From positions 310,001-374,000 of the forward strand of contig NZ_WKJO01000001.1 in the NCBI RefSeq assembly GCF_009674605.1: DNA of 64,000 nt. The letters run 5' to 3'. Positions 38,046-40,742 of the stretch are shown here, one piece after another. The position numbers and the translations under genes were made by a program. Each line of letters opens with the position of its first letter. The stretch's first letter is position 1. Source of the stretch: Haloferax litoreum. GTDB taxonomy: Archaea; Halobacteriota; Halobacteria; Halobacteriales; Haloferacaceae. The notes beneath the pieces are model-generated. The model ran no database searches. It saw only the letters and a program-made list of their open reading frames with translations, and was not told where the DNA came from.

Positions 38046-38081
38046 ATGGAGCCTAACTCTACTCAGCCCGAGGACGAATGA
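38046..38081 (+). other. Short leader ORF overlapping the antiporter start
   Basis: An 11-codon ORF (MEPNSTQPEDE, stop TGA) begins at 38046, close behind a TATA-like gaatttatcc (38006-38015). Its stop overlaps the antiporter ATG at 38078 as ATGA. Translation of the leader could deliver ribosomes to the main start. No Shine-Dalgarno is seen before 38078. Confidence 0.4.
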
Positions 38082-39007
38082 CCGACAGCGTACCCGTCGC
38101 GATTGTCACGTTCGCTTTGAGTATCGGGGCTATGTGGGTCGGTGCAGAAGCGTTCGTGTCCAGCGCCGCCGGGGTGGCACGTCGCTTCGGCCTCTCGGAC
38201 CTCGTCGTGGGTCTCACGGTGGTTGCCCTCGGAACGTCGGCCCCGGAGGCCGCCGTCAGTGTCGACGCCGCTCTCGTCGGAAACGGTGATATCGCAGTGG
38301 CGAACGTCGTCGGCTCGAATCTCTTCAACATCGGTATCGTTCTCGGTGGTATCGCGGCCATCGTCGGCGTTCGAAGTTCTTCTCGGATGGTCCGGCGAGA
38401 CGGAGTGGCGATGATACTCTCGACGGTGTTGCTGCTGGCGGTCCTGTGGGATTTACAGGTGAGCCGTCTCGATGGGGTCGTCTTGCTCCTCGCGTTCGCC
38501 GGCTACCTCACCGCCCTGTTCGTCCGACCGGACGAGTCGGGAGACGCACCGACCGAACCCCGTCGAGCAACGTGGCTCACCGCTCTCCTTCTCGTCGGTG
38601 GACTCGCTACTATCGTCGCTGCCGCGCACTTCCTCGTGGAGTCGGCAGTATCTATCGCCGAGACGGCGGGCCTCTCCGAGTGGGTCATCGGGGAAACTAT
38701 CGTCGCAGTGGGCACGTCGACTCCGGAAATCATCGCCTCCGTCACCGCCGCACGGAACGGGATGGGCGACATCGCCGCGGGCAACCTCATCGGGAGCAAC
38801 GTGTTCAATGCGCTGTTCATCTTGGGCATCACGTCGACGATAGCACCTATCGTGGTCGTCGAGACCGCTATCGGGACCACAACGTGGTTACTTTTCCTCT
38901 CCGTGCTCACCGCCGTCCTCCTCGGAACGAAAGGACGATTGGGACGACTCGAAGGTGCGGTGCTCGTTGCGATTAACGTGAGTCGCTGGATACTCGATAT
39001 CTTGTGA
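38078..39007 (+). CDS. Ca2+/cation antiporter, CaCA family
   Basis: A 309-residue antiporter with about ten helices. Two canonical alpha-repeats: VGLTVVALGTSAPEAAVSV...NVVGSNLFNIGIVLG and IGETIVAVGTSTPEIIASV...NLIGSNVFNALFILG. A third CaCA gene within 9 kb. It is transcribed toward the tRNA region and has a short overlapping leader ORF. Ion specificity cannot be read from the sequence. Confidence 0.9.
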   Translation: MTDSVPVAIVTFALSIGAMWVGAEAFVSSAAGVARRFGLSDLVVGLTVVALGTSAPEAAVSVDAALVGNGDIAVANVVGSNLFNIGIVLGGIAAIVGVRSSSRMVRRDGVAMILSTVLLLAVLWDLQVSRLDGVVLLLAFAGYLTALFVRPDESGDAPTEPRRATWLTALLLVGGLATIVAAAHFLVESAVSIAETAGLSEWVIGETIVAVGTSTPEIIASVTAARNGMGDIAAGNLIGSNVFNALFILGITSTIAPIVVVETAIGTTTWLLFLSVLTAVLLGTKGRLGRLEGAVLVAINVSRWILDIL

Positions 39008-39093
39008 CGGTGGCCGAGTCGAATTCCTAGAGAAGCACGTCCTCCCAGCACGACGAGATGCACTGCGTGTGGGAGTGTCGTTTTCAGGAGAAG

Positions 39094-39114
39094 TAGCGGG
39101 AGGTAGATGTGAAC
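39094..39114 (-). repeat. tRNA-iMet 3'-end copy 1
   Basis: Copy of the 3' 21 bases of the initiator tRNA (T-loop, T-stem and acceptor arm) with one mismatch (plus strand agatgtgaac instead of agatttgaac). It is followed by sequence unrelated to the tRNA body, so it is a fragment and not a gene. Confidence 0.75.
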
Positions 39115-39232
39115 CTCACTCGCAACGCTTCGCGTTGCTCGCTGGTTCAAACTACCTGGTGCAATTTTCAGAGAATCACGTCGGCGAAGTGCGACAAGAC
39201 GCACTGCGTGGGAGTGTCGTTTTCAGGAGAAG

Positions 39233-39253
39233 TAGCGGGAGGTAGATTTGAAC
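39233..39253 (-). repeat. tRNA-iMet 3'-end copy 2
   Basis: Exact copy of the 3' 21 bases of the tRNA, 139 bases from copy 1 and 129 bases from the intact gene. It diverges from the tRNA beyond the T-loop, as expected of an attachment-site core. Confidence 0.8.
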
Positions 39254-39297
39254 CTCGGTCGCTGACGCTCCCTGGTTCACATCTACTGAGCTATGAG

Positions 39298-39354
39298 GCC
39301 GACCTCAGTGGGTCACGCCGAGACGAGACTCGGCGTTCAGGAGTTGAGGTCGGC
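39298..39354. other. Nested perfect hairpin beside the tRNA
   Basis: Outer stem gccgacctca / tgaggtcggc (39298-39307 with 39345-39354) encloses an inner stem acgccgag / ctcggcgt (39315-39322 with 39329-39336). All 18 pairs are perfect. It ends 8 bases before the tRNA 3' end (minus strand sense) and could be a terminator, a recombination-site structure or a small RNA. Confidence 0.6.
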
Positions 39355-39362
39355 AAAAACAT

Positions 39363-39436
39363 AGCGGGAGGTAGATTTGAACTACCGATCTCCGGGTTAT
39401 GAGCCCGGCGGAATCTCCTGGCTATCCCATCCCGCT
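39363..39436 (-). tRNA. Initiator tRNA-Met (CAT)
   Basis: A 74-base cloverleaf on the minus strand: acceptor AGCGGGA/TCCCGCT with the A1-U72 pair of archaeal initiators, anticodon stem CCGGG/CCCGG (three G-C pairs next to the loop, an initiator hallmark), loop CTCATAA with anticodon CAT, and T-arm GGTAG-TTCAAAT-CTACC. No intron; CCA is not encoded. Its 3' end faces the repeat block. Confidence 0.95.
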
Positions 39437-39496: not shown

Positions 39497-39964
39497 TCAC
39501 CGTGAGTCACGGTGACGCGAACCCGCCCCGATTCGCCACGTGAAGAGACTCTCTGCGACGTAGTTCAAGAACATCGAGGCACCGATTGCGATGGGGAGCG
39601 GGATGAGTTGCCAGAGGTCGATGCCAGCGACGGGAATCGTCAGCGGAACCTCTCTGAGTGCGCGGACGACGAGTACCTGCACGGCGAGGCCACCGCTCCT
39701 GACGAGATTCGACTTGACGAACCGCCGAACCTTCGCGAGGAGGTGGTCCGACCCCGCGTCGGCAAACGTCCAGCGGTCGTTGATGACGAACATCACGACG
39801 ATGGCGACTTCTGCGCCGGCGAGTTTGGCTACCTCGCCGACGACGCCGAACACGACGATGAGCAGGCTACTCACCGTAAGGTCGAACATCGCCCCGACAG
39901 CACCGACAGATGCGAACTTCCCGAAGCGGGCACCAGAGAGGAGCGCGGACAACCGATTAGTCAT
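39497..39964 (-). CDS. GtrA-like membrane protein
   Basis: A 155-residue protein with four transmembrane helices, typical of GtrA/DPMS3: GKFASVGAVGAMFDLTVSSLL, EVAIVVMFVINDRWTF (the conserved N-x-x-W-T-F), and FLNYVAESLFTWR. GtrA proteins are thought to flip polyprenyl-phosphate sugars or to support dolichol-phosphate mannose synthase. It overlaps the upstream glycosyltransferase by 8 bases, so the two act together. Confidence 0.9.
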   Translation of the reverse strand: MTNRLSALLSGARFGKFASVGAVGAMFDLTVSSLLIVVFGVVGEVAKLAGAEVAIVVMFVINDRWTFADAGSDHLLAKVRRFVKSNLVRSGGLAVQVLVVRALREVPLTIPVAGIDLWQLIPLPIAIGASMFLNYVAESLFTWRIGAGSRHRDSR

Positions 39965-40742
39965 CCATGACCTCGCACGAGGCGTCCTCGACGAGGGTTC
40001 GCTCGTCGTTGCGGGCGGCGATGAACTCGTGGAGCCTGTCCTGTCGAATCGTTCGCGCGCGATGCCGTGACCGAAGGAGGCCGCGGCCCATCTTGAGCGT
40101 CGTGTCGATAGGCGAGACGGTCGAATTCGGCTGGTCCTCCCAGACGACCGGGACTTCGGCGATTCGGTGGTCGAACGCCCCCGAAACGGCGATGAGTTCG
40201 ATGTCCCACGCGAACCCGGGTTCGTACAGGTGCGTCCGCACGTCGCCCCACGCGTCGGCGGTGATGGCCTTCGCACCGCACTGGTAGTCGTAGAGTGGGA
40301 CCTCGGTGAGATGGCGTGCCAACCACGCGAAGCCGTCGCCGAGATAGCGACGGGCGACGGTCTGGTGCGAGGCGACGGTTGCGTCCGGGTGGCGTCGTGA
40401 CCCGACTGCGAGGTCAGCGCCGTCGTGGACGGCGTCGACGACCTGTGCCATGGACTCGGCGGGCGTGCTCCCGTCGGCGTCTGCGAACGCGAGGATATCA
40501 GTGTCGAGGGCTTCGAACCCCGCGGTGATGGCCGCGCCCTTTCCGCGGCGGGCGTCGACGGGGTTCACAGTCACGACTGAAGGGAGGGAATCGAGGGCGT
40601 CGAGGGTCGTCGACCGCGGCGCATCGAGTTCGACCCGGACCACCTCAGGGTCGAGTTCCTCGACGAGGGCGTGGACGTACGGGACCAGACGATCGGGGTT
40701 CGGTCGATAGGCTGGGACCACGACCCCGACAGACTGCGACAT
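39957..40742 (-). CDS. GT2 glycosyltransferase (dolichyl-phosphate sugar synthase-like)
   Basis: A 261-residue soluble GT2 enzyme: VGVVVPAYRPNPDRL (nucleotide site), ARRGKGAAITAGFEALDTDILAFADADGS (with the DxD), YDYQCGAKA and LYEPGFAWDIEL. It resembles DPM1/GtrB-type synthases that load a sugar from NDP-sugar onto dolichyl phosphate. No C-terminal membrane helices. Coupled to the GtrA gene and divergent from DUF2298. The ATG at 40742 has a TATA-like GCTTTTTACC 27 bases upstream. The sugar is unknown. Confidence 0.88.
   Translation of the reverse strand: MSQSVGVVVPAYRPNPDRLVPYVHALVEELDPEVVRVELDAPRSTTLDALDSLPSVVTVNPVDARRGKGAAITAGFEALDTDILAFADADGSTPAESMAQVVDAVHDGADLAVGSRRHPDATVASHQTVARRYLGDGFAWLARHLTEVPLYDYQCGAKAITADAWGDVRTHLYEPGFAWDIELIAVSGAFDHRIAEVPVVWEDQPNSTVSPIDTTLKMGRGLLRSRHRARTIRQDRLHEFIAARNDERTLVEDASCEVMDD

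Follow-up and report, generated by a model that had tools for sequence, protein, structure and literature searches.

Tandem small insertions that close with copies of the tRNA 3' end behind the initiator tRNA-Met gene and other tRNA genes of haloarchaea

The 64-kb stretch of Haloferax litoreum DNA analysed here (the window, from genome G000) carries a tandem stack of small insertions directly behind its initiator tRNA-Met (tRNA-iMet) gene, and the same arrangement was found behind many other tRNA genes. The stack is probably made up of miniature, gene-less units flanked by attachment (att) sites, placed at the tRNA 3' end through an SNJ2-type junction and mobilised in trans. That the units are att-flanked miniature insertions follows from their boundaries, the length of the duplicated core, the existence of filled and empty sites, their taxonomic limit and their co-location with integrase-bearing elements.

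The window was searched for tRNA genes using ARAGORN and for RNA families using Rfam, and a single tRNA gene was found, encoding the initiator tRNA-Met(CAT) (60.5 bits against RF00005), with no other Rfam match above the gathering score in the window. The gene and the units lie between genes for a Na/Ca exchanger (38078-39007, forward strand) and a GtrA-family protein (39497-40276, reverse strand). The 3' 21-mer of the tRNA (TAGCGGGAGGTAGATTTGAAC) is located at 39362-39382 within the gene and was found again, as the preliminary description had stated, in one exact copy (39233-39253) and one copy with a single mismatch, located in the T-loop (39094-39114), the spacings being 139 and 129. The last 14 nt (TCTACCTCCCGCTA) are identical in all three. 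As no further site was found in the 64 kb with up to 4 mismatches on either strand, chance repetition was rejected, a conclusion also reached from the comparison of own and other tRNAs described below.

In the direction of the tRNA, the gene is followed by unit A, unit B and a truncated unit B' (Table 1). The two similar 85-base blocks reported earlier are real but uneven, consisting of 55 nt at 95% identity (39069-39123 and 39208-39262) and 55 nt at 73% identity (39022-39076 and 39163-39217) shared by B and B'. Both extra copies form the right arm of a palindrome, the left arm of which (39274-39286 and 39144-39156) is the T-arm in reverse complement and is here called the anti-T element. These palindromes had been overlooked, as had the same arrangement at many other tRNA genes.

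Table 1. Features of the tRNA-iMet locus in the window
Feature	Position	Strand	Basis
Initiator tRNA-Met gene	39362-39436	-	ARAGORN, Rfam
Presumed attachment core, last 14 nt of tRNA-iMet	39362-39375	-	Core boundaries over 66 copies
Unit A, 129-bp insertion, from the first base past the tRNA through the end of the first 3'-end copy	39233-39361	-	
Left-end hairpin of unit A	39291-39364	-	Paired in 96-97% of cells; helices 2 and 3 changed on both sides
Helices of the left-end hairpin: CTATG/CATAG (last 3 tRNA nt included), GCCGACCTC/GAGGTCGGC, ACGCCGAG/CTCGGCGT			
Anti-T element of unit A (GTAGATGTGAACC), complementary to the T-arm in inverted orientation	39274-39286	-	Inverted repeat
21-nt tRNA 3'-end copy without mismatch, at the end of unit A	39233-39253	-	14-bp core 39233-39246
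Unit B, 139-bp insertion, second sequence type	39094-39232	-	Homologous type-B units at other Haloferax loci
Anti-T element of unit B (GGTAGTTTGAACC)	39144-39156	-	
tRNA 3'-end copy at the end of unit B, mismatched at one T-loop base	39094-39114	-	14-bp core 39094-39107 exact
Truncated third unit B', starting like unit B, lacking anti-T element and terminal copy	39008-39093	-	Direct repeats

A DNA search found the locus in all 15 Haloferax genomes (G000-G014), with a copy number that varies between species rather than an identical three-copy block throughout. Several extra matches were located behind tRNA-Val, tRNA-Ser and tRNA-Asp genes, with arms fitting those tRNAs; the few genome-wide matches inspected carried the 3' ends of the tRNAs they follow, and full-length copies sit at tRNA genes. 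All tRNAs of G000 were therefore surveyed for a second occurrence of the tRNA-specific 14-mer within 230 nt downstream (up to 2 mismatches), as were those of two further Haloferax genomes (G006 and G007), a genome from another family (G039), a few other haloarchaea and a set of 54 non-haloarchaeal tRNAs. The tRNA's own 14-mer was found downstream of 23 of 52 tRNAs in G000, 27 of 50 in G007, 20 of 49 in G006 and 21 of 42 in G039 (40-54%), and of 4 of 12 in the other haloarchaea and none of the 54 outside them. For comparison, in the four large haloarchaeal sets 0.12-0.39% was obtained with the 14-mers of other tRNAs, and the tRNA's own 14-mer occurred upstream in 4, 4, 4 and 0 cases. About four downstream cases in each Haloferax genome surveyed represent tandem tRNA genes (Gly, Val, Asp), which are also among the upstream matches, and correcting for them lowers the Haloferax fraction by a few points. 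With at least one small insertion behind about half of the tRNA genes in the sampled haloarchaea, tRNA trailers there are largely mobile-element territory. No published description of such units behind tRNA genes was found in the open literature searched.

For tRNA-iMet, close copies were present 80-280 nt downstream in many of 59 genomes representing 27 genera of the order. Searches of 73 genomes (15 Haloferax and 59 order-wide, with G000 common to both), which are insensitive to a lone 14-bp repeat, revealed no larger element at this gene, including the integrase-bearing element between the copies that had been proposed. A scar confined to tRNA-iMet was rejected, given the occurrence of the same arrangement behind many tRNAs in the survey. 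Apparent 5'-truncated tRNA-iMet copies joined through a single N (L011, L015, L020) were set aside as probable scaffold joins.

The extent of the duplicated segment was determined from 66 copies with no more than one mismatch in the 14-mer, comparing the identity of each copy to its own tRNA with that expected from other tRNAs. Only between about positions 60 and 73 was identity above the expectation. No excess was seen in the 5' strand of the T-stem (5' of the T-loop) and at most a slight one past the 3' end of the gene, and in some copies the T-loop had been swapped for other sequence with the final 14 bases intact. Thus, the duplicated core is ~14 bp long and ends exactly at the discriminator base. 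Across tRNAs, the units are 63-181 bp long and start exactly after that base.

Discrete insertions were seen in about ten filled/empty species pairs at orthologous tRNAs, in which the sequence past the copy in the filled species is the sequence past the tRNA in the empty one; rows pairing two members of one tandem Gly or Asp pair were discarded. Unit A of tRNA-iMet is present in G003 and absent from the same locus in G005, where the downstream gene is the same, and tRNA-Gly(gcc) differs between G000 and G007 by a 136-bp unit. Further units identified in this way are at Arg(tct) (107 bp), Ser(tga) (134 bp), Ala(cgc) (81 bp), Gln(ttg) (110 bp), Val(gac) (142 bp), Glu(ttc) (181 bp), Ala(ggc) (120 bp), Phe(gaa) (93 bp) and Gln(ctg) (63 bp). 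Outside Haloferax, the 20 nt past the copy closing the tRNA-iMet unit of G016 match the 20 nt past the tRNA in G051 at 19 of 20 positions. On these sequence comparisons, discrete units have been gained or lost between species. The two tRNA-Ala(ggc) genes of G007 (L128 and L129) are followed by the same two unit types in reversed order.

Variants of the copies were also observed. In several unrelated tRNAs, TTCAC(A)ATC repeatedly replaces TTCAAATC in the distal copy (L028, L043, L054, the window copy at 39094-39114 in L001, and others), pointing to a junction or a shared T-loop variant. Palindromes whose cores are of the CTCGCTTCGCTCGC type break some copies just before the final 14 bases, at tRNA-Ala(ggc) (L047/L048), tRNA-Gly(ccc) (L033) and tRNA-Tyr (L065/L066).

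None of the units encodes a recombinase, the integrase nearest to tRNA-iMet in G000 is 179 kb away, and the PF00589 genes of this genome are no nearer to tRNAs than expected by chance (5 tRNAs within 15 kb, 6.2 expected). Stretches of ~18, 32 and 20 kb containing integrase genes were, however, found behind tRNA-Thr(cgt), elongator tRNA-Met and tRNA-Val(cac) of G000, respectively. All three begin right after the discriminator base and end in a distal repeat of the tRNA 3' end, 13, 14 and at least 20 bp long, respectively, close to which an integrase gene is located. The Thr element is L363 (G000:C1:112533-130486). The region behind elongator tRNA-Met (L364-L365; G000:C1:527583-559463) holds several integrases, the sequence after the tRNA resembles that after the distal 14-bp repeat, and the sequence suggests two or more elements in tandem. 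The Met and Val integrases share 46.8% and 38.2% identity, respectively, with that of Natrinema virus SNJ2 over 96-97% of their length, also match those of HRPV-9, HHPV4 and Humcor2 (betapleolipovirus-type), and show the Pfam domain composition described for the SNJ2 family (PMC8371274). The integrase of the Thr element belongs to a different type, not SNJ2-like, with its nearest relatives in Humcor1 and BJ1. Past their distal repeats, the Thr and Val elements are followed by displaced small units, and the displaced Thr unit starts like the unit directly after tRNA-Thr(cgt) in G007; thus, small units and full elements accrete at one site, much as in the tandem arrangements known for cis-mobilizable elements (CIMEs).

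The junction is also that of published elements. The att site of SNJ2 is 13 bp at the amino-acid attachment end of the tRNA, in an integrase family confined to Halobacteria (PMC8371274), and Humcor2 starts just past the 3' end of a tRNA-Pro and stops after a 13-bp att site (PMC7911831). The attP of Halfgib1 (CCTGCAGCGCCCA) is the 3' 13 nt of tRNA-Arg(tcg). Like the units, SNJ2-type elements and betapleolipovirus-like proviruses have a 13-14-bp core at the tRNA 3' end, start right after the discriminator base, use many tRNA targets, are restricted to haloarchaea and occur in tandem with small units. However, the full elements are ~12-30 kb long and carry an integrase, whereas the units are 63-181 bp, gene-less and often have an anti-T palindrome beside the core.

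The preliminary description had read the copies as attachment sites left by elements that came and went, and was right in kind, in that the duplicated piece acts as a ~14-bp att core. Support for this comes from the position of the core in the 66 copies, from clean filled and empty sites and from three integrase-bearing elements at the same junction. The part of that reading concerning a scar finds no support, as the intervening DNA is structured sequence of the same size range behind about half of the tRNA genes. Because precise excision leaves no scar, a scar reading is also unsupported in principle.

A unit starts at the first base past the discriminator and closes with a copy of the last ~14 tRNA bases, so that insertion keeps the tRNA whole and shoves older units downstream. 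SNJ2-type tyrosine recombinases encoded by haloarchaeal viruses and integrated elements work at this junction, and in the mechanism proposed the enzyme acting on the units is presumably an SNJ2-type or similar integrase. Such integrases may act directly on the units in trans, or a neighbouring full element may excise and reintegrate and take units along, by accretion as for CIMEs. Later changes to a stack would arise by recombination between the repeated cores. As circles of 63-139 bp are poor substrates for a tyrosine recombinase, direct integration of ~100-bp circles is awkward, and therefore transport along with a neighbouring element that later excises on its own is more plausible. Other observations also weigh against trans-mobilised miniature insertions, namely the want of a unit-borne recombinase, the chance distances between G000 integrases and tRNAs, and the anti-T element, which in the units fits each tRNA beyond the core. 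Such a match is not produced by integration alone, and the anti-T element was absent from the viral att regions read. The match could reflect template-switch rewriting within the palindrome, or a binding structure could be under selection. At a guess, the integrase or an accessory protein might bind the left-end hairpin and the anti-T palindrome. The DNA beside the att core of HRPV-9 and SNJ2 folds strongly, and the HRPV-9 hairpin starts inside the core, as in the units. A general test for left-end hairpins in viral att regions gave no significance, with the HRPV-9 segment mis-offset in the run, and the predicted resemblance between viral and unit hairpins is only suggestive.

It is possible, though doubtful, that the units constitute a dedicated class of ~100-bp gene-less elements present throughout the haloarchaea, moving between tRNA genes in trans on viral-type integrases. 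Their hairpin ends, with an anti-T element complementary to the target, would recognise the target or be rewritten, making the units retargetable among most tRNA genes. The arrays can be regarded as a record of past integrase activity, and, given the filled and empty sites of close species, the mechanism could be tested in Haloferax volcanii. They also raise the question of how ~100 bp of DNA whose ends are tRNA-specific can spread from one tRNA gene to others.

The units could alternatively be decayed full integrative elements, in which the interior has been deleted and two att cores with their end structures are left. The junction and core are the same as those of the integrase-bearing elements of G000, truncated or degenerate units exist (39008-39093 in the window; L013), and intact elements have displaced units behind them. 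However, decay would require a full integration followed by a deletion for each clean insertion of 63-142 bp between related species. Moreover, the layout of left hairpin, short linker, anti-T element, loop and T-loop plus core recurs in many tRNAs and several families, which is not expected from random deletion, and an origin of this kind is thus considered unlikely.

The type-A tRNA-iMet units of 20 Haloferax loci retain four helices with 91.8% of cells paired, and both sides changed in 9 of 35 pairs, with a covariation score above those of all 500 shuffles, though relatedness inflates such scores. Stems of at least 8 bp starting from the tRNA end were found behind 15% of tRNAs with copies compared with 2% in shuffles, 10% of tRNAs without copies and 2% of upstream regions. 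The both-sided changes would suit functional tRNA trailers, in which paired hairpins terminate or process read-through RNA and the identity to the tRNA is kept by gene conversion. In addition, H. volcanii uses termination at a T-stretch plus C (PMC7237163), many units open with T-rich trailers, and some tRNAs that run straight into a downstream gene are without units. This explanation is quite improbable, as about half of the tRNAs have no unit, the same tRNA can be filled in one species and empty in another, the copy decays or is interrupted freely, and the identity stops exactly at the boundary of the attachment core.

Template switching or fold-back during replication at the tRNA 3' end would generate a copy in inverted orientation and after it one in direct orientation (X, X-inverted, X) with no recombinase. 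In favour of this, the anti-T element fits the tRNA beyond the core, an anti-T 9-mer with no more than one mismatch was found within 60 nt before 37 of 91 copies compared with 0.9% in shuffles, and palindromes with GAGCGA-type loops recur and sometimes interrupt copies. However, it explains neither the fixed end at nucleotide 73 and the ~14-bp length nor the restriction to haloarchaea. Unit sequences are also unrelated to the neighbouring trailer, homologous unit types occur at one tRNA across species, and more than half of the copies have no close anti-T element, making template switching a very improbable origin for the units. Insertion by a transposase or casposase-like enzyme with ~14-bp target duplication would fit direct repeats of this length at a fixed tRNA position and clean filled and empty sites, but is hardly credible, as terminal inverted repeats common to the units were not seen by eye and the integrase-bearing elements of the same genome already explain the junction.

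Among other known systems, CIMEs and bacterial accretion at tRNA genes resemble the units in being att-flanked, without a recombinase of their own, and in stacking beside full elements, as was found at Thr(cgt) and Val(cac) of G000. However, CIMEs are of kilobase scale with cargo, and the units are only putatively mobilisable. The MITEs, PATEs and small mobile repeats of Haloquadratum are likewise short, non-coding, palindrome-rich mobile haloarchaeal DNA, but have terminal inverted repeats or IS605-like ends and no tie to tRNA 3' ends, whereas the units duplicate a tRNA-specific 14-mer (PMC3119063). In Methanopyrus kandleri, half of the tRNA genes have a palindromic motif ~10 bp further downstream, which also places dyad symmetry just behind many archaeal tRNAs, but this motif has one fixed 18-bp consensus and includes no copy of the tRNA 3' end (PMC5217627).

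A viral source of the 21-mer, for which a search had been suggested, was rejected as the exact sequence is absent from IMG/VR. A scan of IMG/VR for palindromes formed by anti-T/T pairs identified 46 stretches, and on inspection by eye no haloarchaeal unit could be recognised among them. GC-rich IMG/VR contigs (L329, L332, L335, L342, L344, L349, L350 and L351) share a palindrome, CATG-GATTTGAACC...GGTTCAAATC-CATG, which as far as seen is unrelated to the haloarchaeal units. Searches of phage and plasmid DNA mostly returned similarity to tRNA genes, including extra tRNA-iMet genes on haloarchaeal megaplasmids. A second initiator tRNA-Met gene is present in many haloarchaea (L016-L019, L024, L025, L315, L316), and in PLSDB such genes are carried by megaplasmids of Haloferax gibbonsii, Natronorubrum, Halomicrobium, Halarchaeum, Halococcus and others. 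Some of the second copies in Haloferax also bear 3'-end units behind them.
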